From NCBI RefSeq assembly GCF_035917235.1, contig NZ_CP108423.1, positions 1,674,001 through 1,738,000 on the forward strand: a stretch of 64,000 nucleotides of DNA. The letters are read 5' to 3'. The position numbers were made by a program, and so were the translations under genes. The notes under the pieces are model-generated. The model saw nothing but the letters and a program-made list of their open reading frames with translations. It made no database searches and had not been told where the DNA came from. Each line of letters begins with the position of its first letter. The first letter of the stretch is position 1. Shown piece after piece: positions 2,515 through 15,954 of the stretch. The DNA is from Streptomyces sp. NBC_01294. GTDB taxonomy: Bacteria > Actinomycetota > Actinomycetes > Streptomycetales > Streptomycetaceae.

Positions 2515-4851
2515 ATGGCGGGGAGCGATTTCGGGCATGCCATCGGGCTGCCCCGCGCGCTCTCCGGCCTGCCTCTGTCGCCGCTGGTGGGAGCGTACGG
2601 GGAACTCCTCGCCTCACAACAGACCCTCGGACTGCGCCACTTGGGCGAGTTACTGGTCCCGCCGGGAGGCCGCTTACGGGTGCTCGACGGGGTCTTCCGC
2701 GTCGAGGGGACCGGCCGGCGCCACCACGTGGGAACCGGGGTGCTGCGCGCGCTGCGCCGGGACCGGCCGGAGCCGGCCGCGGCCCGGTTGCTGGAGCGGC
2801 TCACGGGGATCCAGCGGGCGGACCCGTCCGCCCTGCGCCGGATCCTGCTCTACCAACTCGTCCACCTGCTCCAGGACCACCCGCAGGGGCACCTGCCGGC
2901 CACCGCGGCCGGCTTCGGGGTCGACCCGGCGGAGGCCGCCGCCCTGGTCCACGCCGCCGCCCGGCGGGCCCGGCTGGACGCCGCGCAGCGGGCCGCCGCC
3001 GAGGCCCTGGAGGACGACGTACTCGGCCACCGGATCCGGTCCGCCGCCGCGCTGGCCGCCGTACTGCCGCCCGCCGGCGGGGACCGGCCGCTGGCCGCCC
3101 GGCTCGCGGAGCTGGCCGCCCGGGCCGCGGCCGCCGACGCCGCGCTCGATGCGGCCCGGCGCCACGAGGAGCGGGGCGATCCGGAGCGGGCCCGCGTCCG
3201 CTACGAGGAGGCGGCCGCGCTGGCGGGGGACTGCCCGCGCGCGGTGCGCGGGCTGGTCCGCACCCACCGGCCGGACGCCGAGGATCCGGGCTCCGGCGCG
3301 CTGGAGTCCGTACTCGTCCCCGGCGGGGTCGAACTGCGCTGGCCGCCCGGTGACTTCGGCGGCCCGCGCTGGCGGGTGGTGCGGCTGACCCGCGGGGAGC
3401 CGGCGACCGCCCCGCTCGCCGAGGTGGCGGGGCAGCCCGGCGGGGGCCTGCTCGTGGACCGCGGCGCCGGGACCGGCACGGAGGTCCGCCACGTGGCGCT
3501 GCCGCTGCGGGCCGACGGCCGCGTCGACGGGCCGCCGCTGATCGGCCCCGCGCTGTCCGTCGCCCCGGCGGTGACGGAGCTTGGCGTCGACGACGGCAAC
3601 GGCTGGATCGAGGCCTCCTGGACGCCGGCCGCGGGCGCGGCCCGCTCCGAGGTGACGCTGACCCGGCCCGGGGGACGCACGGAGGAACTCACTGCGGTGC
3701 GGGCGGGCCTGCGGGAGACCCTGCGCGCCGAGGGGCTGGAACCCGGGAGGTACGAACTGGCCGTACGGGCCCGGTACGCGCCGTCCCACCCTGCCGCCGG
3801 GCGCGGCGCGCTGTCCGCGGCCGCGACGGCCCGGGTCACCGTGCACCCCTGGCCGGCGCCCGTGCTCACGCTTTCGGCGGCGGCCCGGGAGGCGGGCGGG
3901 GTGGAGTTCCGCCGGACCGGCGGCGAGGGGGCCGAGGTACGGCTGGTGGAGTGGCCGGGCGACGCCCCCGCCGAAGGCGCAGAACTGAGGACATCCGAAC
4001 TGCCGCCCCCGCTGCCCTGGACCGCCCCGACCTGGACCCCGACGACCCCGACGCCCCCGGCCGGCGCCGGTTCCGGCGGTGCGGTCTCGGTCGGGCTGCC
4101 GCCCGTGGGGGCGCTCGTCACCGTGTCCGCCGTGGCCGTGCTGGGTGAGCGGGCCCTGGCCGGGCCGGGCGTCCTGGTCGAGGCCCCGCTGCCGGTGACC
4201 GGGCTCGCGCTGCGGCGCACCGCACCCGGCGAGGTCGAGGTCACCTTCGACTGGCCCGGCGCCACCGGCACCGTCACGGCCGCCGTCACCCAGGACGGCC
4301 GGCGCACCGTCTTCGACGTGGCCCGCAGCGTGTTCCTGCGCGAGGGGCTCCGCCTGCCGGTCACCCCGGCCGCGGTACGCATCGACGCGTACGCCGCACC
4401 GCGCAGCGCCCGGTCCGTCCTGGCCGCCACGGCCGGCGACGCGCGGGCCGGACTCCCGGCCGACGTGGCCATCGCCTACGAACTGGTGCCGGGCGCCCGG
4501 CGCGGACTGCTCCGCCGCGGGCCCGCCGTCCTGCGGGTGACCGTACGGGCTCCGGGCGGCGCGCCCGGCCCGGACCTGCCCGGCTTCGTCCTGGTCGCCC
4601 GGGGCGACGGCGGGCGCGATCCGCAGCGCCCGGGCGGTCCGGCCGCCGGCCCGGCCGTGTGCCGGGTGACCGGGGCCGAACTCGCCGCCGCCGCTGCGGC
4701 CACGGCCGCGGGAACGGGCACGGTGGAGCGCGAGATCGACACCGCCGCCGCTCCCGGCCGCCCGTACGCCCTGCGTGGTTTCCTCCTCGGCGGCTCCGCC
4801 GCCTCCGTCCGGCTCGAAGAGCCCCCTCTCCCCTCTCTGGTGGTCCGCTGA
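2515..4851 (+). CDS. Large helical plus Fn3-like beta-sandwich protein, first gene of the GTPase/GAP1 locus
   Basis: This 778-aa protein has no signal peptide or membrane segment. Residues ~1-240 are Ala/Arg/Leu-rich and look helical. They end in a stretch (AARRHEERGDPERARVRYEEAAAL) that resembles a TPR-like helix pair. From ~255 onward it is a series of beta-rich modules with repeated patterns such as GWIEASWTP, GRYELAVRARY and GEVEVTFDWPG, typical of fibronectin type III-like domains, plus a Pro/Thr linker near residue 505. The ATG at 2515 is the first in frame and follows a G-rich stretch. The stop lies one base before the ATG of the next gene, so it heads an operon with the GTPases and GAP1-like protein. 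I infer a cytoplasmic scaffold or sensor role from the architecture. No catalytic motif is visible, and the function is unknown. Confidence 0.75.
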   Translation: MAGSDFGHAIGLPRALSGLPLSPLVGAYGELLASQQTLGLRHLGELLVPPGGRLRVLDGVFRVEGTGRRHHVGTGVLRALRRDRPEPAAARLLERLTGIQRADPSALRRILLYQLVHLLQDHPQGHLPATAAGFGVDPAEAAALVHAAARRARLDAAQRAAAEALEDDVLGHRIRSAAALAAVLPPAGGDRPLAARLAELAARAAAADAALDAARRHEERGDPERARVRYEEAAALAGDCPRAVRGLVRTHRPDAEDPGSGALESVLVPGGVELRWPPGDFGGPRWRVVRLTRGEPATAPLAEVAGQPGGGLLVDRGAGTGTEVRHVALPLRADGRVDGPPLIGPALSVAPAVTELGVDDGNGWIEASWTPAAGAARSEVTLTRPGGRTEELTAVRAGLRETLRAEGLEPGRYELAVRARYAPSHPAAGRGALSAAATARVTVHPWPAPVLTLSAAAREAGGVEFRRTGGEGAEVRLVEWPGDAPAEGAELRTSELPPPLPWTAPTWTPTTPTPPAGAGSGGAVSVGLPPVGALVTVSAVAVLGERALAGPGVLVEAPLPVTGLALRRTAPGEVEVTFDWPGATGTVTAAVTQDGRRTVFDVARSVFLREGLRLPVTPAAVRIDAYAAPRSARSVLAATAGDARAGLPADVAIAYELVPGARRGLLRRGPAVLRVTVRAPGGAPGPDLPGFVLVARGDGGRDPQRPGGPAAGPAVCRVTGAELAAAAAATAAGTGTVEREIDTAAAPGRPYALRGFLLGGSAASVRLEEPPLPSLVVR

Positions 4852-4852
4852 C

Positions 4853-6127
4853 ATGACCTCCGTCGTCTGCCCCTACTGCTTCGACCGGGCCCCGGCCGCA
4901 CGGCTGCCCTACCGGTGCCAGATGTCCGCCACCGGAGTGCGCGGCGCCCGGCCCTGCGGCGCCGAACTCGACACCATATGGGCCGACTTCATCGGCCCCG
5001 GCGTGCCTCCCGCACTGAAGCTGCGCGGCCCCGTCTTCACCGCCGCGCGCGGACTGGGGCGGCGGATCGCGCTCAACCAGGGCGGATCGCGCGCGGACTG
5101 CCCCGCCTGCGGGGTGTCCACCCCCGTCCGGGTGTGCCGGCGCTGCCACAGCGACTTCCCGAGCGACTACTGCGACCAGGACACCCGGATCATCGCCCTG
5201 CTCGGCCCCAAGGCCTCCGGCAAGAGCACCTACGTCTCGGTCCTGGTCAACGAGCTGCGCGGCCGGGTGGGCCGGGCGTACGGGGCCTCGGTGACCGCGA
5301 TGGGCGGCGAGACCCAGCGCCGGGACCGCGAGATGGCCGAGGACCTCTACGACCGGCTGCGGCTGCCGGAGGCCACCAGACCGGCGGCCCTGGGCTTCAA
5401 CGACCCGCTGCTGTACCGGCTGAGCCTGCCCCTGCGGCGCCGGCTGCGCGGGAACGGCAGCCGGCACACCGCGCTGGTGTTCTTCGACGCCGCGGGCGAG
5501 GACCTGGGCAGTGCCGAGGCCATGGACCGCTACACGCACTACCTGGCCGCCGCCGACGGGATCATCCTGCTCGTGGACCCGCTGCAGGTGCGTGCGGTGC
5601 GCGACCGGCTGCCCGTGGACGACGGGCCGCCGCTGCCGGTCATCGAGACGCCGCCGCAGCAGATCGCCGCCGACCTCGCGGCGCAGCTGCGGGCCCACGG
5701 CCGGGGTGCCTCGCGCGGCCGGGTCACGACCCCGGTGGCCGTGGCCGTGACCAAGACGGACTCGCTGGCGCCGCTGCTGGAGCCGCACTCGCCGCTTCTG
5801 CGCAACGCCGACCACGCGGCCGGCGCACTGGACGAGGAGGACCGGCAGGCGGTGCACGAGGAGATGCGGACGCTGCTGGACGGCTGGGACTCGGGGGCGC
5901 TGCTGCGGCAGTTGGAGCGGGACTTCACCCGGCTCTCGCTGTTCGGGCTCTCGGCGCTCGGCTCGCCGCCGCCCGCGCACGCACCGGCCGACGCCCCGAA
6001 GTCGGGGCCGCGGCCGCTGCGGGTGGAGGATCCGCTGCTGTGGCTGCTGGGGCTGGGCGGGCTGCTGCCCCGTACCGGCGGCGCGTCCGGTACGGGCATC
6101 CGTACCGGCCCGGAGGGGAACGCATGA
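4853..6127 (+). CDS. Zinc-ribbon TRAFAC-type GTPase (first of two)
   Basis: This 424-aa protein starts with paired cysteines (CPYC at 6-9, CPAC at 83-86, then CRRCHSDFPSDYC), which look like zinc ribbons. The G domain follows. The P-loop GPKASGKS is at about 118-125, the Walker B/G3 motif FFDAAGED has its Asp near 212, and the G4-like TKTD is at 300-303 for guanine recognition. These fit the 'double-GTPase' families annotated beside GAP1 proteins in actinobacterial conflict loci (my recollection of the literature, not a search). No membrane segment is present, so it is probably cytosolic. It begins one base after the upstream stop and overlaps the next gene by ATGA. GTP hydrolysis driving an on/off switch is inferred from the family. 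The partner is probably the adjacent GAP1-like protein. Confidence 0.82.
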   Translation: MTSVVCPYCFDRAPAARLPYRCQMSATGVRGARPCGAELDTIWADFIGPGVPPALKLRGPVFTAARGLGRRIALNQGGSRADCPACGVSTPVRVCRRCHSDFPSDYCDQDTRIIALLGPKASGKSTYVSVLVNELRGRVGRAYGASVTAMGGETQRRDREMAEDLYDRLRLPEATRPAALGFNDPLLYRLSLPLRRRLRGNGSRHTALVFFDAAGEDLGSAEAMDRYTHYLAAADGIILLVDPLQVRAVRDRLPVDDGPPLPVIETPPQQIAADLAAQLRAHGRGASRGRVTTPVAVAVTKTDSLAPLLEPHSPLLRNADHAAGALDEEDRQAVHEEMRTLLDGWDSGALLRQLERDFTRLSLFGLSALGSPPPAHAPADAPKSGPRPLRVEDPLLWLLGLGGLLPRTGGASGTGIRTGPEGNA

Positions 6128-9100
6128 ATCTCGCCCAACTGCACTACACCTCGGCGCCGCCCGGCCCCGACGGATCCGGCTTCCGGTTCACGGCCGTCAG
6201 CCCCGGGGTGCCGGCCGCGCTGCTGCGCGAGGCCGAGCAGCTGATCGGGTACGAGCCGCCCCGGGACGCGCCGCCGCGCCCGGACCCCGGGCAGCTCGCG
6301 GCCTTCCCGCAGGCGCTCAGCCTGAACGTGCTGGCCGACGGCAGCCGACTGCTGGCCCGTTCGGTGTACACGGGCGCCGACTACAGCGGCCGCTGGGGCA
6401 ACTTCCACGCCCACGCGGTGCACCTGCCGCAGCCCGCCGGTTCCGGTCCGGCGCTCGGGGCGCTGCCGATCACCGCCTGGGGCTCCCCGCAGTGGGCGGG
6501 CGAAACCCCTGCGGACGGGGCTCCCCCGCTGGCGGCGGTACCGTTTCCGGGCCGGCACGACCCGGCCGGGCTGGCCGAGTTCGTCACCGCCCGGGGGCCC
6601 TGGCTTGCGGGGTTCTTCGCCGATGTGCGCCGGCTGGGCGAGGACCCGGCCGCGCCGCAGATCGTGCTCGTGGAGGCGGACAGCGAGGCCGTGGCCCGCT
6701 GGATCATGCTCGCGTGCAGTGTGCTGCCGCACCAGCGCGGGCAGTGGCTGACCTTCACCACCTACACCAGGCGGCCGCAGCTCGCCCGGCAGCAGATCAT
6801 CGGCGTGGTGCCCGAGGACGGCCTCGGCCTGGCCGGGCAGGAGCACCGCTACCGGGTGTACGACGCCACGCGCGCCACGGCTCCCGACGCCGCGGCTCCC
6901 GACACCGGGGCGCCGGACGTGTGGGCCGACACCGCCGCGCGGATCTGGCAGGGGCGGCGGCAGGAACTCTTCGCCGAGGTACGGCGGCTGTCCACCGATC
7001 CGTACGACCCGGGCCCGCTGGCCGCGCTCGCACTGGCCGCGGGCGTCGCCCTGGCCGCGCCCGGCCGGACCGCGGCCGCCGACTGGACGGCCGGGCACCG
7101 GGACGCGCTGGACGGCGTACGGCTGCACGCGCTGGCCCTGGCGCTGGGCCGGCCGGCCGCGGACCGGGACCGGGCGGAGGCCGCCGCGGGCGGGCGGCTG
7201 CTCGCGGCCCTGGACGGGTGGGCCCCGCCGGAGGTGTGCGAGCCGCTGGTGGCGCTGACCCTCGCCGAGGCGGTGCGCACCGGCGCCCCGCCCGCGGCGC
7301 TGCCCTCCGCGGGCGCGCTGGGCGCGGCCGCCCGGAGCCGGCTCGCGGCGGAGCTCGAACCGGGGCTGCGGGCGGCGCTCACCGGCGCCCCGGCCGAACC
7401 GGGCCATCCGGCCGGGCTGTTGCGGGTCGCCTCGCTGCTCGGGGTGGACGTGACGGACCTGCTGCCCGGTGTGGCGCGGCAGGTGGCGCTCGCCCTGCTC
7501 GACGATCCGGAGCGGGCGTACGGCGAGGGGGTGCGGGCCGCGCTGGCCGAACTGCCGGGGCTGCGCGCCCTCGTACTCGACCGGCTGGACGCGCTCGCGG
7601 CGGGTGATCCGGCCGCGGCGCGGCGGCTGTTCGCCCGGACCGCGCTGCGGCTGACGGCGGCCGACGCGCTGCCGCACCTGCGGATGTGCGCCGATGCTCC
7701 GGCGGTGGCCGCGGCGGCCGCCCCGGACCGGGTCGCCGCGCTGAACGCCCTCCTGGCCCGCTCGGGCGTCTCGCTGTACGCGGAGCCGCTCGTCCTGCGG
7801 ACGGCGATGCGGCTGGTGTGGGACGGGGAGCCGCCGACCGCGGGCGAGGCGGGGCTGGTCCTCGTGGCGACCGGATCGCAGGTCCACCGGGAGTCCGGCA
7901 CCTGGGAGTTCCTCGTGGAGGCGGTGGTGCGGGCCCCGGCCGGGGACGCCGAGGCGGCGGAGCTGGCACCGGAGGTCCTCGGGCACTTCCAGGAGGAGAT
8001 CCCGGCCCGGCTGCGGCCGTCGCTGCTGCTGCTGGAGCTGGCCCGGAACCTGCGGTCGGGCGCGGCGGGCGCGGGCTGGGTCCGCCAGGCACTGGACCTG
8101 ACGTCGCTGGACCCGGAGCCGGGGGCGCGGGGGCAGGCGTACGCGGCGGTCTGCGCGCGGCTGCTGGCCGGGGAACGGCCGGACGGCGAGCTGCGGGCCC
8201 TGATCGAGAGCAACGACGCGGGGCTGCTGGCCGCGTACCGGCAGGCGGCGCGGGAGCCGCGGGTGCTCGACCGGCTGCGGCTGGATCCCGGCTACGTCGC
8301 GGACTGCTTCACGGTGTGGTCCTCCCAGCCGCAGGCCGGCCCGGTCTGGCAGGAGGCCCGTACGGACCTGCTCGACGGGGTGCTGCGGCCGGTCGTACGG
8401 GGGCTGCAGGCGGCGGAACTGGCCGAGGTGGAGCAGGCGCTGGCCCGGCTGGGCGGCCGGTGGGCGGACGAGTTCCGCGGCTGGCAGCGGCCGGGCGCCT
8501 TCGGACGCCTGCGGGAACGCTTCGGCGGCCGCCGGTCCGGCTCCGCCGGGGGGAGCAGCACGTTCCGCCCGGCCGGATCCGGCGCGCGGCCCGCCGACGA
8601 CACACGCGGCGGGCCGACGGCCCCCGACCGCCCGGACGGACACGTCCGCCCGGCCGCCCCGGGCCCCGACGGACGCCCCGAACCGGGCGCCGCGGGCGGG
8701 CCGGACCGGCGGTCCGGCGGGCCGGGCACCGCCGACGGGCCGAGCACCCCGGGCAAGCCGGGCGCCGCGGAGGGCGGCGACTGGTGGTCCGGCAGGCCGG
8801 GCACCGCGGGTGGGCCGGGCACCGCCGCCGGCTCGGGCGGATCCGGTCGGCCCGGCGGGCCCGGTGAGCCGCCCGAGGGCGGGCGGGTCGGGCCGGCGTA
8901 CCCGGGTCGGCCGGACGGCTCCGGCCGACCCGGGGGGTTCGGCGCGCCCGGCGCCACGGGCGGCGGCGACTGGTGGTCCGGCGAGCCGGGCACCGCGCGC
9001 ACGCCGGGCGGCACCGGCAGGCCGGGCACCCCAGGCGGGCCGGGCGGCGGGGCCGGACAGGGCGGGCCGGGCGGCACACGCGGACGGGGCACCCCGGGCG

Positions 9101-9258
9101 GGCCCGGCGGCGGGGCCGGACAGGGCACCCCGGGCGAGCCGGGCGGCACGGGCGGACAGGGCGGGCCGGGCGGCACGGGCCGCGCGGAGGGGCGGGACTG
9201 GTGGTCCGGCAGGTCGGGCCGGGCGGGCGGGCAGGGGGCCGGTGGGGATGGGGGCTGA
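6124..9258 (+). CDS. GAP1-like GTPase-associated protein with a long Gly/Pro tail
   Basis: This 1044-aa protein has an N-terminal region (about 1-240) beginning MNLAQLHYTSAPPG. It contains GFRFTAVSPG, YTGADYSGRWGNFHAHAVHLP and LTFTTYTRRP. That matches my memory of the GAP1 N-terminal domain (type 2) found next to paired GTPases. Residues ~250-810 are an Ala/Leu-rich, probably all-helical middle and C-terminal region. The last ~230 residues are a low-complexity Gly/Pro/Arg tail with three DWWSG motifs at about 886, 949 and 1025. The ATG overlaps the preceding GTPase stop (ATGA), and its own end overlaps the start of the second GTPase by 11 bases, so the three are translationally coupled. It probably regulates or is moved by the flanking GTPases. 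'GAP' here means GTPase-associated; activating activity is not shown. Confidence 0.75.
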   Translation: MNLAQLHYTSAPPGPDGSGFRFTAVSPGVPAALLREAEQLIGYEPPRDAPPRPDPGQLAAFPQALSLNVLADGSRLLARSVYTGADYSGRWGNFHAHAVHLPQPAGSGPALGALPITAWGSPQWAGETPADGAPPLAAVPFPGRHDPAGLAEFVTARGPWLAGFFADVRRLGEDPAAPQIVLVEADSEAVARWIMLACSVLPHQRGQWLTFTTYTRRPQLARQQIIGVVPEDGLGLAGQEHRYRVYDATRATAPDAAAPDTGAPDVWADTAARIWQGRRQELFAEVRRLSTDPYDPGPLAALALAAGVALAAPGRTAAADWTAGHRDALDGVRLHALALALGRPAADRDRAEAAAGGRLLAALDGWAPPEVCEPLVALTLAEAVRTGAPPAALPSAGALGAAARSRLAAELEPGLRAALTGAPAEPGHPAGLLRVASLLGVDVTDLLPGVARQVALALLDDPERAYGEGVRAALAELPGLRALVLDRLDALAAGDPAAARRLFARTALRLTAADALPHLRMCADAPAVAAAAAPDRVAALNALLARSGVSLYAEPLVLRTAMRLVWDGEPPTAGEAGLVLVATGSQVHRESGTWEFLVEAVVRAPAGDAEAAELAPEVLGHFQEEIPARLRPSLLLLELARNLRSGAAGAGWVRQALDLTSLDPEPGARGQAYAAVCARLLAGERPDGELRALIESNDAGLLAAYRQAAREPRVLDRLRLDPGYVADCFTVWSSQPQAGPVWQEARTDLLDGVLRPVVRGLQAAELAEVEQALARLGGRWADEFRGWQRPGAFGRLRERFGGRRSGSAGGSSTFRPAGSGARPADDTRGGPTAPDRPDGHVRPAAPGPDGRPEPGAAGGPDRRSGGPGTADGPSTPGKPGAAEGGDWWSGRPGTAGGPGTAAGSGGSGRPGGPGEPPEGGRVGPAYPGRPDGSGRPGGFGAPGATGGGDWWSGEPGTARTPGGTGRPGTPGGPGGGAGQGGPGGTRGRGTPGGPGGGAGQGTPGEPGGTGGQGGPGGTGRAEGRDWWSGRSGRAGGQGAGGDGG
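8560..9255 (+). repeat. Gly/Pro-rich degenerate repeat tail with three DWWSG motifs
   Basis: The 3' end of the GAP1-like gene is built from degenerate GGC/CCG-rich units encoding GxP-type collagen-like sequence. Three spaced copies of DWWSG (codons at 8779, 8968 and 9196), each followed by [RE][PS]G, stand out against the low-complexity background. The third copy sits 20 residues before the stop codon. Confidence 0.75.
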
Positions 9259-10909
9259 TCTCTGGTATCCGGAGCCGCTCGTGCGGGTCCTCGTCGTCGG
9301 CACCGGTGTGATCGGGGTCGCCGTGTGCCTCGGGTACGGGCTGTGGCGGTTCCTGGGGCTGGCCCTGTCGGCCGCCGGGTCCGCCTTCGACCCCCGCACG
9401 CTCGGGTCCAGGGCCCCGAGGATCACCCCGTACGCGGGCCCGGAGCCGGCCCGCCCCGCGTACTGGGCCGGGCAGATGTGGCGGGACGCCCGGTTCGCCG
9501 GGCGGGCGGCCGCGCTGACGGTCTGGTACCTGCTGACCCGGCACTGGCTGGGCGAGGTGGTGCGCCGGCGCCTGCTGCGCGGCCGCCACGGCCAGACCGG
9601 CATCCGCGCCGGGAACGGCATCGGCCGGCTCGTGCTGCGCCTGATCGCCCCCGGCACGGCGCTGGCCGCACTGCTGTCCGCGCTGCTCGCCTCGGTCCTG
9701 CTGGTCGGTGTCGCGCTGGTCTTCCTCGTGCAGCTCGTCCTGGTCGCGCTCGCCGCGCTGGCCGCCGTCCTCGCCGGGCGGACCGCGGACCGGCTGTGGA
9801 AGCTGGCCCGGGGCATCCGCATGAAGTGCCCGTACCCCGGCTGCTACCGGCCGTTCCCGCTCGCCGTGCACATCTGCCCGGGCTGCGGCGCCGCCCACCG
9901 CGACCTGCGGCCCGGCGGCTTCGGCGCCCTGCGGCACGTCTGCCGCTGCGGCCGGGCGCTGGCGACCACCGCCGTGACCGGGCGGCGCAAGCTCACCGCC
10001 CGGTGCCCGCACTGCGACCAGAGCCTGCCCCCGGCCGTCGGCACCACCCGGGTCGTGCACCTGCCGCTGATCGGCGGCACCTCCGCAGGGAAGACCATGC
10101 TGATGGCCGCCATGCTCGAAGGGCTGCGGTCCTGGTCGCACCAGTCCGGGCTGACGGTCGAGTACGCCTCCCCCGACGACCTCCGCGAGGCCAACACCCT
10201 GAACCGGCAGCTGAGCCAGTCGGGGTGGACCCTCAAGACCCAGGGCGGGCAGCCCCGCGCCCTGATGCTGCTGGTCGGTCGCGGCCGCCGGCGCCGGCTG
10301 CTCTACCTGTACGACCCGATGGGCGAGTCCCTGCGCGACGCGGACACCACGCGCCGCCAGGGCTACCTCGCGCACGCCGACGGGGTCCTGCTGGTCACCG
10401 ACGTGCTCGCCGCGCCCGTCGTACGCCGCGCCCTGAGCGCGGGCGACCCCGAACGGGCCGCGGCCGCCCGGCCGGCCGACCTCGGCCCGGTGGAGACGTA
10501 CGCGGGGTTCACCGGCGAGCTGCAAGGACTCGGCGGCCGCCGCAAGCGGCTCGCCGTGGCCACGGTGGTGACCAAGCGGGACGTACTGGACCAGCTGACC
10601 TCGCTGCCGCGGCCGTCGGAGCCGGTCGGCGGCTGGCTCGGCGCCATCGGGCTGGACGAGCTGGTGCGCGCCCTGGGCCACGACTTCGCGGCGGCCCGCT
10701 ACTGGGTGGTCAGCGCCCGTGCCGCGACCGGCGCGGGCGCCCTGGACACCGAGCAGCGGCGGGCCGCGGAGCCCGTGCTGTGGCTGCTGTCGCGCACCGG
10801 GCTGCGCGTCGGGCGGCTCGCGGAGGACCGGCCGGAGCCCCGGGGCGTGCAGGACGCGCAGGACACACAGGGCCCGCAGGGCACCGAGGAAAGGATCAAC
10901 ACCCCATGA
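9248..10909 (+). CDS. Membrane-anchored zinc-ribbon GTPase (second of two)
   Basis: This 553-aa protein has an N-terminal hydrophobic segment (VRVLVVGTGVIGVAVCLGYG) and a long hydrophobic block at about 137-180, probably two helices. It should therefore sit in the membrane with its catalytic part in the cytosol. Cysteine pairs after residue ~195 (KCPYPGC, ICPGCG, CRCG, RCPHCD) form a double zinc ribbon. The G domain then shows P-loop GGTSAGKT at ~275-282, YDPMG (Asp ~356) in the G3 position, and TKRD near 443. It resembles the DO-GTPase2-like partner of GAP1 systems. I prefer ATG 9248; GTG 9242 is two codons upstream in frame. It overlaps GAP1 by 11 bases and the next small gene by ATGA. The soluble/membrane division between the two GTPases suggests recruitment of the complex to the membrane. 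Confidence 0.8.
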   Translation: MGADLWYPEPLVRVLVVGTGVIGVAVCLGYGLWRFLGLALSAAGSAFDPRTLGSRAPRITPYAGPEPARPAYWAGQMWRDARFAGRAAALTVWYLLTRHWLGEVVRRRLLRGRHGQTGIRAGNGIGRLVLRLIAPGTALAALLSALLASVLLVGVALVFLVQLVLVALAALAAVLAGRTADRLWKLARGIRMKCPYPGCYRPFPLAVHICPGCGAAHRDLRPGGFGALRHVCRCGRALATTAVTGRRKLTARCPHCDQSLPPAVGTTRVVHLPLIGGTSAGKTMLMAAMLEGLRSWSHQSGLTVEYASPDDLREANTLNRQLSQSGWTLKTQGGQPRALMLLVGRGRRRRLLYLYDPMGESLRDADTTRRQGYLAHADGVLLVTDVLAAPVVRRALSAGDPERAAAARPADLGPVETYAGFTGELQGLGGRRKRLAVATVVTKRDVLDQLTSLPRPSEPVGGWLGAIGLDELVRALGHDFAAARYWVVSARAATGAGALDTEQRRAAEPVLWLLSRTGLRVGRLAEDRPEPRGVQDAQDTQGPQGTEERINTP

Positions 10910-11034
10910 TGACACCGCAGATCGTGCGGGGCCGGCGGCTGATGCTGGTCCTGCTCGTGACGGCGGTCGTGGTGACGGCTGCCGCCGCAGTGGCGGCGCT
11001 GGTGCGGTACGTACCGCAATGGATCGGGAGTTGA
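10906..11034 (+). CDS. 42-residue single-pass membrane peptide
   Basis: A very short gene runs from the ATG at 10906, which overlaps the GTPase stop, to a TGA at 11032-11034. The product MMTPQIVRGRRLM... has a basic N-terminal segment and one hydrophobic helix (LVLLVTAVVVTAAAAVAALV), then a short RYVPQWIGS tail. A GAGGAAAGGA ribosome site lies 6-8 bases upstream. The tight coupling on one side and a 12-base gap to the VWA gene on the other argue that it is a genuine operon member and not chance. A small membrane partner of the GTPase, or a pore-like effector, are both possible; nothing in the sequence decides. Confidence 0.65.
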   Translation: MMTPQIVRGRRLMLVLLVTAVVVTAAAAVAALVRYVPQWIGS

Positions 11035-11046
11035 AGGAGATATGCG

Positions 11047-11736
11047 GTGAGTGACATCCCCGGCGGGCCGATGGCGAACCGGCCCGTCCATTTCATCTGG
11101 CTGCTCGACTGCTCGTACTCGATGCAGGGCGAGAAGATCGGTCAGCTCAACTATGCGATCAGAGAGGCCGTTCCGGAGATGCGCGCGGTGGCGCAGGACA
11201 ATCCGGCCGCCCAACTGCTGCTGCGCACGATGACGTTCTCCACGACGGCCCGCTGGCACCACCAGGACCCGGTGCCGGTGGAGCAGTTCACCTGGCAGGA
11301 CGTGCAGGTGGACGGCATGACCAACCTGGGCGAGGCGCTCCAGCTCGCCGCGCGCGAGCTGGACACCCCGCCGATGCCGCAGCGGGCCCTGAAGCCGGTG
11401 CTGGCCCTGGTCTCCGACGGCGTCCCGACGGACGACTGGAAGGCGGGTCTGCGGGCGGTGGACGCGACCCCGTGGGGCCGCAAGGCGGTCCGGGTGGCCA
11501 TCGCGATCGGCGCGGACGCCGACCGCACCGTGCTGCAGGAGTTCCTGGGCAATCCCGAGCTCCAGCCGCTGGACGCGAACAGCCCCAAGCAGCTGGCCGC
11601 GGCGATCCGCTGGGCCTCGACGGCGGCGGTGAAGGCGGCCTCCCAGCCGGTGGCGGGCTCCGCGGACGTCACCATGAAGCAGCCGCCGTACGCCCCGCCG
11701 GTGCTGGACGACGACGATGACGACGACGTGTGGTGA
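11047..11736 (+). CDS. von Willebrand factor A domain protein, TerY-like
   Basis: This 229-aa protein is almost entirely a VWA domain. The metal-ion-dependent adhesion site is complete: D21-x-S23-x-S25 in LLDCSYSMQG, T92 in GMTNLGEAL, and the SDGVPTD aspartate at 123-129. It therefore likely binds Mg2+ and a partner protein. The C-terminus ends in a run of seven aspartates followed by VW, which is unusual. The GTG start at 11047 has a strong GAAGGAGAT ribosome site. Its stop overlaps the phosphatase start (GTGA). VWA, PP2C and kinase genes in a row match the 'TerY-P' phosphorylation triad proposed from comparative genomics of tellurite/stress loci. Here the triad is joined to the GAP1/GTPase genes. 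Confidence 0.85.
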   Translation: MSDIPGGPMANRPVHFIWLLDCSYSMQGEKIGQLNYAIREAVPEMRAVAQDNPAAQLLLRTMTFSTTARWHHQDPVPVEQFTWQDVQVDGMTNLGEALQLAARELDTPPMPQRALKPVLALVSDGVPTDDWKAGLRAVDATPWGRKAVRVAIAIGADADRTVLQEFLGNPELQPLDANSPKQLAAAIRWASTAAVKAASQPVAGSADVTMKQPPYAPPVLDDDDDDDVW

Positions 11737-12752
11737 GCGGACCCGTGCGGACCCTCGGACCCGAACCGCTCTGGGACACGCTCCAGGGCACCGTCCAGGG
11801 CGTGAACAAGACCCGTAACCAGGACCACTACGAGGCGGAGGGGCGCGGCACCGCCGGACAGCCGCTGATCATGGCGGTGGCCGACGGCCACGGATCGGCG
11901 GTGCACGCGCGCAGCCACCTGGGGTCCCGGTTCGCCGTGGACCTGTTCGTCCAGCAGGCCAGGCTGTTCGCCGCGCTCGCCGAGCCCCGGGGCGACGGGC
12001 AGCCGCCGAGCCTGTCCTGGCTGATGCACTACGCCGAGCACACCCTGCCGCGCCAACTGGTCAGCGCCTGGCAGGAGAAGGCGCTGGGGCACTGGGAGCG
12101 GACCCGGTCGCCCGGTGAGCCCGGGATGGACCCGGTGGACAAGCTGGTGCTCTACGGGAGCACGCTCGTCGGCGCCGTGCTGACCCCCCGGGTCTTCGCG
12201 GCCTGGCAGCTCGGCGACGGGGAGCTGACCGTGGTGACCGACGACGGGCGGGTGACCGTGCCGCTCGCGCCGGACGAGGCGGATCTGGGCGACGAGACGG
12301 AGTCGCTGTGCTCCCCGCAGGCCTGGCTGCGGGTGCGGACCCACTGGGCGCCGGTGACCGCTCCCGCGCGGGCGCCCCGGCTGGTGTCGGTGTCGACCGA
12401 CGGCCTGTCCAAGAGCTTCGCCTCGGACACCGGCTTCCGGCAGTTCATGGCCGGGCTGGACGACCGGCTGGCGGCGGAGGGCACGGAGTGCGTCCGGGCC
12501 GTCCTGCCGCAGTGGCTGGCCAAGGCCTCGCGGCACTCGGGGGACGACACCACCCTGGTGGCGGCCTGGCACACCGCCACCGCCGCCACCGCCGGCCCCG
12601 CCGACGCGACGGTCACGGGCGACGCGACCGACCGTGCCGCGATGGCGTACCCGTCCGGCGTGACCTACCCGGCCGCCCCGGCCGGCATGACGTATCCGGC
12701 CGACACGACCGACCCGGCCGACCTGAGAGACCCGTACAGGAGTGACGAATGA
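11733..12752 (+). CDS. PP2C-family serine/threonine phosphatase
   Basis: This 339-aa protein carries the PP2C metal and catalytic motifs in order: RNQDHY (28-33), ADGHGS (50-55), LGDGEL, STDGLS and GDDTTLVAAW (near 270). The missing Gly-rich spacing is minor, and the domain should be an active Mn/Mg phosphatase. The last ~60 residues are a low-complexity Ala/Thr/Asp tail with repeated YP motifs (MAYPSG, VTYPAAPAG, MTYPADT). It starts at GTG 11733, overlapping the VWA stop, and ends in an ATGA overlap with the kinase. It most likely opposes the adjacent kinase, with the VWA or GTPase proteins as candidate substrates; the pairing is inferred from gene order. Confidence 0.85.
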   Translation: MSGPVRTLGPEPLWDTLQGTVQGVNKTRNQDHYEAEGRGTAGQPLIMAVADGHGSAVHARSHLGSRFAVDLFVQQARLFAALAEPRGDGQPPSLSWLMHYAEHTLPRQLVSAWQEKALGHWERTRSPGEPGMDPVDKLVLYGSTLVGAVLTPRVFAAWQLGDGELTVVTDDGRVTVPLAPDEADLGDETESLCSPQAWLRVRTHWAPVTAPARAPRLVSVSTDGLSKSFASDTGFRQFMAGLDDRLAAEGTECVRAVLPQWLAKASRHSGDDTTLVAAWHTATAATAGPADATVTGDATDRAAMAYPSGVTYPAAPAGMTYPADTTDPADLRDPYRSDE

Positions 12753-14080
12753 GCGGCATGCTCGAGAGCGGTACCCGACTGGCGGCCGACAGCGGCCCGG
12801 GCGTGGAGGTCTTCGACCTGCTCGGCTCGGGCGGCCAGGGGGAGGTCTACCGGGTGCGGACCCCGTCCGGCGACCAGGCCCTCAAGTGGTACTACCCGGC
12901 CTGCGCCACACCGGCACAGGAAGACATCGTCCGCCAGCTGGTGGACCGCGGCTTCGACGACGACCGGTTCCTGTGGCCCCGGGACTTCGTGTCCGACGGG
13001 CGGGGCGGCTTCGGCTACCTGATGGACATCCGGCCGGACCGGTTCAAGGGCCTGCCGATGCTCTTCCGCCGGAAGCTGCGCACCACCATCCGCGCGCTGC
13101 TCACCGCCTGCCTCTACACGGTCGAGGCCTACCAGGCGCTGCACTCGCGCGGGATCGCCTACCGGGACATCTCCTGGGGGAACATCTTCTTCGACCCGGC
13201 CACCGGAGAGGTCCTGGTCTGCGACAACGACAACGCGGTGGTGGAGGGCGACAGCACCGGCATCTCCGGGACCATGGAGTTCATGGCGCCCGAGCTGGTG
13301 CGCGGCGAGCCCGGGGTCGCCCCCGGCACCCAGAGCGACCTGCACTCCCTGTCCGTGCTGCTGTTCATGCTGCTGATGAACCACCACCCGCTCAAGGGAC
13401 GGCGGGAGCTGGCCATCCGCTGCCTCGACGAGGCGGCCGAGCGCAAGCTGTACGGGAAGCAGCCGCTGTTCGTCTTCGACCCGCAGGACCGGTCCAACGC
13501 CCCCGATCCCGTGGAGCATTCGACGGTGCTGGCCACCTGGAAGGTGGTGCCGGACTCCCTGCGCGACCTGTTCACCAAGAACTTCACGACGGGCCTGCAC
13601 GACCCCGCCGCCCGGGTACGGGAGTCGCAGTGGCGGGACACGCTGCGGGCGGTCCTCGACGCGGTCGTGGACTGCGCGCACTGCGGGAAGCAGAACATGA
13701 CCGAGCCGCTGGCCGCCACCGCGAGTCCCTGCTGGAACTGCGGGAGCACGCTGGTGCTGCCGCCCCGGCTGGTGCTCACCACGCCCCCGCCGCGCACCGA
13801 GCACCACATCCTGCTGCACCGGTCCTCGCGGGTGCAGGCGCACCACCTGGCGCCGGAGCCGGCCCGGCACGACTACGGCGACGGCACGCTGGTGGCGCAG
13901 CTCACCGAACATCCGCAGCGGCCGGGGAAGTTCGGGCTGGCCAACCGTTCCGGTTCGGCCTGGACGGGCACCCGCGCGGACGGCAGCACGCAGGAGATCG
14001 CGCCCGGTCAGACCGTGCCGTTGCGCTCGGGGCTGGAGCTGGACTTCGGCGGTGCGCGGGCCGTCGTCCGCACGAGGTGA
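12749..14080 (+). CDS. Atypical serine/threonine kinase with zinc ribbon and FHA-like tail
   Basis: This 443-aa protein begins with a kinase domain. The Gly loop is GSGGQGEVY (26-34) and the ATP-binding Lys46 lies in ALKWYY. The catalytic loop is YRDISWGN (Asp140, Asn145), then CDNDNAV at 158-164 and FMAPE (178-182). The HRD motif is YRD, and the canonical DFG is DND, keeping the metal-binding Asp but not Phe-Gly. A CxxC...CxxC zinc ribbon (CAHCGKQNM...CWNCGS) follows at ~309, and the last ~60 residues (FGLANRSGSAWTG...LELDFGGARAVV) look FHA-like. No membrane segment is present, unlike most PknB-type kinases. It ends the plus-strand operon and overlaps the phosphatase (ATGA). I infer that it phosphorylates locus partners. 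Confidence 0.85.
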   Translation: MSGMLESGTRLAADSGPGVEVFDLLGSGGQGEVYRVRTPSGDQALKWYYPACATPAQEDIVRQLVDRGFDDDRFLWPRDFVSDGRGGFGYLMDIRPDRFKGLPMLFRRKLRTTIRALLTACLYTVEAYQALHSRGIAYRDISWGNIFFDPATGEVLVCDNDNAVVEGDSTGISGTMEFMAPELVRGEPGVAPGTQSDLHSLSVLLFMLLMNHHPLKGRRELAIRCLDEAAERKLYGKQPLFVFDPQDRSNAPDPVEHSTVLATWKVVPDSLRDLFTKNFTTGLHDPAARVRESQWRDTLRAVLDAVVDCAHCGKQNMTEPLAATASPCWNCGSTLVLPPRLVLTTPPPRTEHHILLHRSSRVQAHHLAPEPARHDYGDGTLVAQLTEHPQRPGKFGLANRSGSAWTGTRADGSTQEIAPGQTVPLRSGLELDFGGARAVVRTR

Positions 14081-14134
14081 GACGGCCCGGCGCCGCGAGG
14101 AGGACGGGAGCGGCGGACGGGGCCGGGGCCGGGG

Positions 14135-14461
14135 TCAGCCCAGCAGCCGGCTGATCTCCTGGGCGAGGGCGAGGCCCGTGCTGCCCGCCCCCAGCCCGAG
14201 GGTGATGGTCTCCAGCGCCCGCCGGACCACACCTGGTTCGGCGGTTCGCCGCTCCCGTCCTGCCTGGTCCAGCTCCTCGCGCAGGGTCTGCGCCGCGTCG
14301 AGCCGCGCCTGCCCCGCGCCCTCCGCCCTCAGCCACTGGGCGAGTTCGGCGGCCAGGCGCAGCGTCTGTGCGGCGGTGTCCTGCTGCCCGATGTTGATGG
14401 TGCCGTTGTCCCCGAAGTTGCCGGGGCCGGTGATGTTCCCGTGGAAGTTGTACGTGCTCAA
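14135..14461 (-). CDS. Small adaptor-like protein with Gly-rich N-terminal beta tag
   Basis: This 108-aa protein starts STYNFHGNITGPGNFGDN, a glycine/asparagine motif like the 'GxNFGxxGTIN' tags seen at the ends of bacterial NLR-like and effector-associated-domain proteins. The rest is helical: AQTLRLAAELAQWLRAEG, then LREELDQAGRERR, then an Ala/Gly-rich C-terminal helix (ITLGLGAGSTGLALAQEISRLLG) that could be amphipathic or membrane-touching. I use a TTG start at 14461 because GAGGAG lies seven bases upstream and no ATG/GTG precedes the motif. It is 20 bases downstream of the membrane protein, so the two form an operon convergent with the kinase. The shared tag suggests that the two proteins interact. 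Confidence 0.7.
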   Translation of the reverse strand: MSTYNFHGNITGPGNFGDNGTINIGQQDTAAQTLRLAAELAQWLRAEGAGQARLDAAQTLREELDQAGRERRTAEPGVVRRALETITLGLGAGSTGLALAQEISRLLG

Positions 14462-14481
14462 CGGTGACTCCTCGTCTTCGC

Positions 14482-15954
14482 TCAGGGGTTCGCGGACGGC
14501 TGTGCGGCCGCACCGTTCTGGTTGACGGTGCCGTGCGCGCCGAAGTTGCCGGCGTGGATGTCGCCCTGGAAGGTGTAGGTGTGGGTGTTGATGACCTGCT
14601 GCGCCTGGTCGTAGGAGCTGGTGTCGACGTTGTGGTCCTTCAGGAACCGCTCGGTCGCTATCAGCACGCCCTGCTGGAGCCGCTGGAGGAAGTCCTGGGA
14701 GTCCGTCCGCTCGGAGAACCCCAGCTGCTTCCAGTCGGCGACCCGTTCGCGCAGGCTGTCCACGGCGCCGTAGTCGAACCGCAGGTGCCGCTTGTCGATC
14801 TCGCGGCGCCACTTCTCCAGCGCCCGGGCGCGCGTCCGCCGGGAGGAGGCCCGCCGGGAGAGCGTGCGGGGGGCGCCGAGGAGGGCCGACGCGGTGGTCC
14901 GGGTGGCGAAGCCGACGAGGCTCCACCAGCGTTCCAGGCCGTCCACGGGCAGCTGGTGCACCCGGTAGAACCGCTGCTGGAGCGGGGGGATCCCGTACGC
15001 CGCCACCTCCCAGGTGAGGCTGGGGTGCTGGAGCCTGGCCCGCAGGTGCATGGAGACGATGACGCGGCCGCCCTCGCCCGCCCGTTCCAGGCTGAGGTAG
15101 GTGCGCATGCCGGCGCCGGGCTGCATCACCCCGGCCTGCACCAGCTGCTTGGGGATCTGGGCGCGCGGGCGGCGCAGCCGGTCGGGGAGCAGGTCGGGGC
15201 CGACGTAGGAGACGTGATCGCCTATCACGTAGAGCCGGTTGCGGGCCCGCAGCCCCTTGAGTCCGGCGATGTGCTCCATCTCGCGGGCGATGAAGCTGTG
15301 CAGGTCGACGGCGTCGAAGGGCTTGATGACCAGCTTGCCGCCGCCCGCCGGATCGTCGGCGGGCCGGCTGACGTCGATGGGCTGCCAGACCATTTCCTTG
15401 ATCTTCGAGCCGCTGCCGACGAACGGGTTGGTCCGCTCGGCGCTCGCGGTGTACGGGACCACGTTGGCCCGCTTCTGCTCCAGCAGCCGGTCCTCGGCCT
15501 CCGCCCCGACGTCCGGGGCGAGGTCGACCGGCCGCTCGGCGCCGTGCTCGACGGCGAGCGCCGCCGCGCGGGCCGCGCTCTCGGCCCGGTGGACCAGCCC
15601 CCAGGCGGTCCCGTACGTGAGGACGATCAGTGCGCCGGCCCCGAGGGCGAGGCCGGACAGGCCCGCGACGAGCCCGTACAGCGCGGTGGGCACCGCCGCC
15701 CAGACGCCGACCGCGCAGAGCTGCGCCAGGCGCCGGTCCCGGAGGTCGGTGTGCCGGACGGAGGCCCGGGCGTGGCGGGCCAGGGCCACCAGGTCGATGC
15801 CGAGGGAGAGCCCGGTGGCGTGCAGCCGGTCCTCGGTGAGCTCCACGTCCACGTCGCGGGCGAAGCCCTCGTCCAGGTGCGCTCCCGCGCACAGCAGGCG
15901 TGTCACCGCGTCGGTCCGGTACTGCGCCAGCGCCGGTAACCGGCGAGCTGCCAT
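14482..15954 (-). CDS. Two-TM membrane protein with C-terminal Gly-rich beta tag
   Basis: This 490-aa protein has hydrophobic segments at about 78-98 and 100-118 (VWAAVPTALYGLVAGLSGLAL, GAGALIVLTYGTAWGLV), so a short N-terminal part and a large C-terminal part face the same side, presumably the cytoplasm. The soluble part (130-470) has mixed alpha/beta character with RNRLYVIGDHVSYVG and GGRVIVSMHLRARL. It ends YTFQGDIHAGNFGAHGTVN, which matches the N-terminal tag of the downstream small protein. The ATG at 15954 has a GGAGGACGAGAC ribosome site. I do not recognise the main domain. By position it belongs with the GTPase/GAP1 locus, and a membrane-linked sensor or effector is a reasonable guess. 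Confidence 0.75.
   Translation of the reverse strand: MAARRLPALAQYRTDAVTRLLCAGAHLDEGFARDVDVELTEDRLHATGLSLGIDLVALARHARASVRHTDLRDRRLAQLCAVGVWAAVPTALYGLVAGLSGLALGAGALIVLTYGTAWGLVHRAESAARAAALAVEHGAERPVDLAPDVGAEAEDRLLEQKRANVVPYTASAERTNPFVGSGSKIKEMVWQPIDVSRPADDPAGGGKLVIKPFDAVDLHSFIAREMEHIAGLKGLRARNRLYVIGDHVSYVGPDLLPDRLRRPRAQIPKQLVQAGVMQPGAGMRTYLSLERAGEGGRVIVSMHLRARLQHPSLTWEVAAYGIPPLQQRFYRVHQLPVDGLERWWSLVGFATRTTASALLGAPRTLSRRASSRRTRARALEKWRREIDKRHLRFDYGAVDSLRERVADWKQLGFSERTDSQDFLQRLQQGVLIATERFLKDHNVDTSSYDQAQQVINTHTYTFQGDIHAGNFGAHGTVNQNGAAAQPSANP

Follow-up and report, generated by a model that had tools for sequence, protein, structure and literature searches.

The 64,000-nucleotide window of Streptomyces sp. 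NBC_01294 analysed here (contig NZ_CP108423.1, positions 1,674,001 to 1,738,000) holds, from position 2515 to 15954, a ten-gene locus that is probably a conflict-type switch equipped with a conserved output module. Judging from its sequence, the core belongs to the 'kinase theme' of GAP1-N2/DO-GTPase systems, a kind already described. The output module is a pair of genes convergent to the core, named M490 and m108 after the lengths of their products; the pair was not found in print as part of such loci and appears to be new. In the reading favoured here, the C-terminal tail of the membrane protein M490 recruits m108 like-to-like, possibly in an amyloid-type manner.

M490 (P0008, 14482..15954, minus strand) is a 490-residue protein with two predicted transmembrane (TM) helices at about residues 79-114. 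Its structure model (mean pLDDT 89.6) is folded with high confidence to residue 464, and residues 465-490 have a pLDDT <50 and are predicted to be disordered. The adjacent m108 (P0009, 14135..14461, minus strand), 108 residues long with a TTG start, has no predicted TM helix, and its model (mean pLDDT 72.8) has low confidence up to residue 24, followed by four helices. A first-pass annotation, made from the letters of this DNA, had seen in these genes a convergent membrane pair acting as sensor or effector, a good hint as to role but wrong in making both proteins membranous, as only M490 has predicted TM helices. The disordered C-terminal end of M490 (14506..14589, minus strand) and the N-terminal end of m108 (14378..14458, minus strand) share a motif of about 22 residues, the two ends in the window being TYTFQGDIHAGNFGAHGTVN and TYNFHGNITGPGNFGDNGTIN, and both copies sit in segments predicted to be disordered in the monomers. 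The relation is also recovered by profile homology, with the M490 model matching the m108 head in 19 of the 49 loci that hold both genes (E <1e-3), the window included, and the m108 model matching the M490 tail in 7 of the 49 at the same threshold; such cross-matches were also obtained in G142 and G024. A motif profile that includes both of the window's sequences matched just these two sites in the window's genome at E values up to 5, and thus no other protein with the motif was found there. M490 has no Pfam domain, and neither M490 nor four distant relatives gave a match to NB-ARC/NACHT or any other NTPase.

The pairing of the two motifs is established statistically. Across 45 loci of the window's family, a set that leaves out L047, L069, L072, and L068 as degenerate, duplicate, or of other architecture, the mean local similarity score was 75.7 for motifs of the same locus vs 52.9 for motifs of other loci, and 20,000 permutations gave a mean of 53.4 (standard deviation 1.75) and a maximum of 60.9. 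The locus's own partner took the first rank in 15 of the 45, with striking matches in L065, L073, L033, L017, and L030. Thinning the set by identity of the M490 body to <75% left 16-18 clusters with a z of 7.8, and thinning to <60% left 6-7 clusters with a largest p of 0.003. Cross-locus similarity increases with relatedness (r 0.57), which fits the expectation that both motif copies change together.

The M490/m108 pair, again as far as sequence comparison can tell, belongs to the conserved content of the locus and at the same time forms one branch of a broader module with matched motifs. The 48 distant M490-like loci that were fetched (47 from M490 matches and L072 from the m108 search) are part of the distant matches, and in each the partner was assigned blind to the motif, as the next gene downstream on the same strand judged solely by position and coding bias. 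With the duplicates L110 and L134 dropped, the partner's first 70 residues scored 70.1 against their own M490-like tail and 39.3 against others, for a permutation maximum of 50.8 (n=46); the own partner was best in 20 of these loci and among the top three in 35. M490-like proteins were present in 13 of 148 genomes of a class-wide sample, five of the window's genus, and in the loci of other families with both ends readable (L199, L201, L202, L205, and L206) the motifs match by eye. Of four further loci, L198 has an M490-like match in several frames, L203 and L204 have no downstream sequence, and L200 duplicates one from the window's genus.

A Pfam scan of 12 partners of distant M490-like proteins points to exchange of the body behind the motif. 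Three partners carry CAP12-PCTIR_TIR (L113, L144, and L148; 3.4e-26 to 7.7e-28), two carry PNP_UDP_1 (L202 and L205), and two carry EAD1 (L198 and L199), with DUF5955 over its cut-off in L104 and below it in L099 and L201, and no Pfam match in L101 or L133. The candidate effector end of the pair is taken to be m108, since in distant relatives the same slot is occupied by bodies of TIR, nucleoside phosphorylase, or EAD1 type. As a separate observation, a third gene encoding a zinc-ribbon protein of 230-250 residues follows the small partner in L100-L103.

Linkage of the pair to the core was followed in loci fetched by GAP1. Searching genome contigs with GAP1 returned 50 loci, of which 43 have the kinase, and all 43 of these named loci hold the other six core components, also at stricter bit thresholds with the two GTPases at separate places; linkage of the core is therefore far above chance. 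The first-pass annotation had proposed that these genes belong together, and they are indeed found together in relatives rather than scattered. Both M490 and m108 are present in 41 of the 43, counting L047, although its M490 is degenerate, and L052, whose pair is found some 4 kb farther away; L044 and L062 are the two without it. Among 150 genomes of the family, GAP1-N2 occurs in 20, an m108 match in 13, and a strong M490 match (E <1e-80) in 10. GAP1 lies within 10 kb of M490 in nine of the ten strong-M490 genomes, found by PF20013 in G000, G024, G142, G064, G027, G134, and G081 and by GAP1-M/C in G135 and G106. The pair is found in none of six GAP1-N2 loci that have a GTPase and no detected kinase triad (G044, G068, G073, G079, G131, and G141), a group left unassigned as to theme, in which G131 is a 4.4-kb contig and G079 has one weak kinase-like match.

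Two variant arrangements bear on the same point. In L064 and L065 (G135 and G106) the order on one strand is M490-m108-GAP1-vWA-PP2C-kinase, with an FNIII-like gene opposite and no GTPase genes found by tblastn; the motifs of these two loci look like the RHIM core. In L067 (G064, 6006-13496), GAP1 and M490 are the only two of the ten genes found, and they lie between the same phospholipase-like and ketoacyl-synthase-like genes that flank the window's locus, an equivalence judged by eye from translations; no match was obtained there to m108, the GTPases, the kinase, PP2C, vWA, or the gene in the FNIII position. Elsewhere, a second, diverged GAP1 gene adjoins M490 in L068 (2585-4969), L027, and L028, and all that is left of M490 in L047 and L069 (G128) is a short C-terminal match, with a decayed look to the two motif copies that suggests joint degeneration of the pair.

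The core itself consists of eight plus-strand genes that overlap by 4-11 bases or are separated by gaps of 1 and 12 bases, and the coordinates bear out the gene packing, followed by two minus-strand genes, that the first-pass annotation described. The operon opens with a conserved gene for a 778-residue sensor candidate (P0001, 2515..4851) and continues with DO-GTPase A (P0002, 4853..6127), which has two zinc ribbons (DO-GTPase2, 2.1e-9, with motifs read by eye), GAP1 (P0003, 6124..9258; GAP1-N2 1.1e-41, GAP1-M 6.2e-24, and GAP1-C 1.8e-118), and DO-GTPase B (P0004, 9248..10909; DO-GTPase2 1.5e-11), which has N-terminal TM segments and zinc ribbons. After P0010 (10906..11034), a 42-residue protein with a single TM seen in translation, come a stand-alone vWA protein (P0005, 11047..11736; VWA 1.6e-5), a PP2C phosphatase (P0006, 11730..12752; PP2C_2 1.8e-30), and a protein kinase with a C-terminal tail (P0007, 12749..14080; Pkinase 9.3e-15). 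All of these Pfam calls exceed their cut-offs, and the P-loops, zinc-ribbon cysteines, MIDAS D-x-S-x-S, PP2C aspartates, and kinase K/D/N/D residues can be read by eye in the translations, confirming the earlier domain calls of two zinc-ribbon GTPases, a GAP1-like protein, VWA, PP2C, and kinase. The zinc ribbon of the kinase was seen by eye, and its profile matches are weak. The GAP1-N2 family occurs once in the 8.5-Mb genome, whose named close relatives are Streptomyces. The Gly/Pro-rich C-terminal tail of P0003 (residues about 886-1030) contains three DWWSG repeats, and DWW is absent from all 34 named GAP1 relatives readable to a stop.

These features correspond closely to the published theme. 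Kaur et al. (eLife 2020, PMC7159879) describe GAP1-N2 with a kinase carrying a zinc ribbon and a beta domain, PP2C, and vWA as one actinobacterial theme, and because both halves are described together the core can be counted as known; the first-pass annotation was right that GAP1/GTPase and VWA/PP2C/kinase sets had each been described computationally as parts of immunity or stress systems, though not only apart from one another. Shared with that theme are the paired DO-GTPases with zinc ribbons and TMs, GAP1-N2/M/C, the kinase with its zinc ribbon, PP2C, the stand-alone vWA, and the actinobacterial host; the window's DO-GTPase pair has zinc ribbons and one member with N-terminal TMs, its GAP1 has the N2, M, and C domains, and its kinase, PP2C, and vWA lie in adjacent genes. 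The window differs in that FN3 is not detectable in P0001, since Pfam gave no such match for P0001 or for four relatives, two of which are partial; an FNIII nature of P0001 is suggested by gene position and by the published theme. The small-TM open reading frame just upstream of vWA, the counterpart of P0010, is present in 42 of 43 loci with vWA, and P0010 (10906-11034) may equal the C-terminal TM reported by Kaur et al. on the second GTPase, split off as its own gene. The convergent M490/m108 pair has no mention in that paper's text passages on the theme, and the word 'amyloid' has zero occurrences in its main text. The anti-invader role of GAP1-N2 systems is put forward as a prediction in those passages, which report no functional test; immunity, a GTP switch, and phosphorylation control, all proposed by the first-pass annotation, are likewise predictions for the locus described here.

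A sequence of events can be envisaged as follows. The protein in the FNIII position and GAP1 would read an envelope or invader cue and thereby control the nucleotide-bound state of the two membrane-linked GTPases, and vWA, kinase, and PP2C would impose a threshold by reversible phosphorylation. The threshold state may then activate or cluster M490, whose exposed C-terminal motif would recruit m108 by way of the like motif at the N-terminal end of m108, in the manner proposed for amyloid signalling motifs and EADs; the pairing of motifs in this step is seen in co-variation over loci, and the binding is presumed. Finally, the clustered helical body of m108 might act on the membrane or on cell physiology. 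M490 is put between switch and m108 on three grounds: of the pair it is the protein in the membrane, variant gene orders keep it linked to GAP1, and in G064 it stands alone with GAP1. The order of action is predicted, as are binding, an amyloid state, and an antiviral role.

Several observations weigh against this reading. The window's own partner ranks 22 of 45, and nine of the 45 loci rank 19 or worse, including the window and its close kin L014-L016. Thinning by M490-body identity to <50% leaves 3-5 clusters with a largest p of 0.18. In the distant loci, the rest of the partner, used as a control, shows a small excess of its own (25.8 vs 23.3, p 0.001) in a set of n=40 from which six presumed tandem-motif partners were dropped, three of these on a full-length reading, for a motif value of 69.5 vs 39.4 in the same set; with tandem-motif partners kept, the control is 31.3 vs 25.9. 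Four kinase-bearing loci lack the pair, namely L062, L044 (the same sequence as L154), L155, and L150, where GTPase and PP2C matches are also missing, and the pair is therefore not essential. Comparison with solved structures gave no convincing match for either M490 or m108, and the effector role of the partner is putative. Lastly, the same codon is used in 920 of 1330 identical aligned motif residues from both sets of loci, vs 829 expected from codon usage; the matching is at the protein level, and DNA copying between the motif ends possibly contributes to it.

The alternative that survives best, and a possible one, is that the motif is an ordinary hetero-oligomerisation element, a beta-strand pairing or beta-solenoid cap, keeping the two proteins stably together; m108 would then be a regulatory subunit, and there would be no templated polymerisation. 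The motifs are short and rich in Gly, Asn, and Ser, those of several distant loci resemble trimeric-adhesin head repeats, many distant partners are small (about 115-195 residues) with no evident catalytic domain by Pfam on the 12 scanned, and no measurement in the analysis separates simple pairing from amyloid. What argues for recruitment of an effector instead is that partner bodies swap for TIR, phosphorylase, and EAD1, which are known effector or effector-adaptor types, and that some partners, L133, L140, and L143 among them, have the motif doubled in tandem, as reported for BASS4 and HET-s (PMC8086366).

It seems unlikely that the pair forms a two-gene conflict module of its own, settled in a favourable site beside the GAP1 locus and outside GAP1 control. 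Such independence would account for the four kinase-bearing loci without the pair, for G104, which has a close pair and no GAP1 found, and for the distant loci, where tblastn at E 1e-5 found GAP1, GTPase, vWA, PP2C, and kinase genes in none of 48, a limited test on stretches of 4-18 kb in which the same search recovered the M490-like gene in only 26, so that diverged core genes could be missed. It fits poorly with linkage in 41 of 43 GAP1-fetched loci and in the variant orders of G135 and G106, with the retention of only GAP1 and M490 between the window's flanking genes in G064, and with the 0/6 loci that have GAP1-N2 and GTPase and no detected kinase triad. Weakest, and improbable, is the idea that gene conversion between nearby DNA repeats, left over from an ancient tandem duplication where M490 meets m108, keeps motifs of little function alike, for although the two copies flank the intergenic gap and codon identity is mildly above expectation overall and strongly so in loci such as L073 (15/15) and L029 (16/17), protein matches occur with near-expected codon sharing in L065 (12/18 vs 13.4) and the window (9/12 vs 8.6), and the same pattern is seen again with different motif types and different partner bodies, beyond the window's family as well.

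The proposed like-to-like recruitment of m108 by M490 has a close published parallel in the BASS motifs, where NLR and Bell proteins of neighbouring genes share an amyloid motif (Dyrka et al. 2020, via PMC7889193, PMC8086366, PMC9815663, and PMC12261475). As presented in those sources, the likeness lies in a short motif common to adjacent gene products, several motif families, TIR and helical-bundle effectors, and filamentous actinobacterial hosts, and over the set of loci the same motif does stand at the ends of neighbouring products, matched per locus. Exchange of effector bodies behind a common motif is likewise given as a feature of fungal and bacterial amyloid signalling (PMC7889193, PMC8086366, and PMC9815663). 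Unlike BASS systems, no NLR is detected here, the constant partner is a membrane protein without a Pfam domain, one branch of the M490 module is tied to a GTPase/kinase locus, and the arrangement is the mirror image of Bell/NLR, with the motif at the C-terminal end of M490 and the N-terminal end of its partner. EADs couple a constant core homotypically to variable effectors through folded domains (Kaur et al. 2020, PMC7159879; 2021, PMC8195603), a principle that the M490 module would share, two relatives of M490 having partners that bear EAD1 itself; unlike those small domains, the M490/m108 coupling element is a motif of roughly 22 residues predicted to be disordered in monomers. A small constant protein adjoining a second gene in actinobacteria also recalls the EACC1 two-gene systems (PF19953), although no caspase is seen beside m108; single-sequence matches to PF19953 are faint (18 of 37 members, best 0.0049), and hhalign gives a profile-profile probability of 6.6%. 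Past the locus, the window holds at 15900-21862 genes resembling a small biosynthetic cluster, judged from translations only (ketoacyl synthase III, glycosyltransferase, AMP-ligase, P450-like, and epimerase).

More tentatively, the M490 module may represent a non-NLR form of amyloid-type signalling in actinobacteria, in which a constant membrane protein, its C-terminal 'barcode' changing rapidly, would seed polymerisation of an effector with a matching N-terminal barcode, be it a helical killer, a TIR NADase, a nucleoside phosphorylase, or an EAD1 adaptor, with one branch placed under a GTPase/GAP1/kinase/phosphatase switch. GAP1/DO-GTPase systems were predicted in 2020, and the account of the kinase theme in PMC7159879 names no output gene; a conserved output pair with matched tails makes that output concretely and cheaply testable. 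If the proposal is true, like-to-like effector recruitment would extend beyond bacterial NLRs and would be linked, in multicellular bacteria, to a eukaryote-like GTPase/kinase/phosphatase switch.

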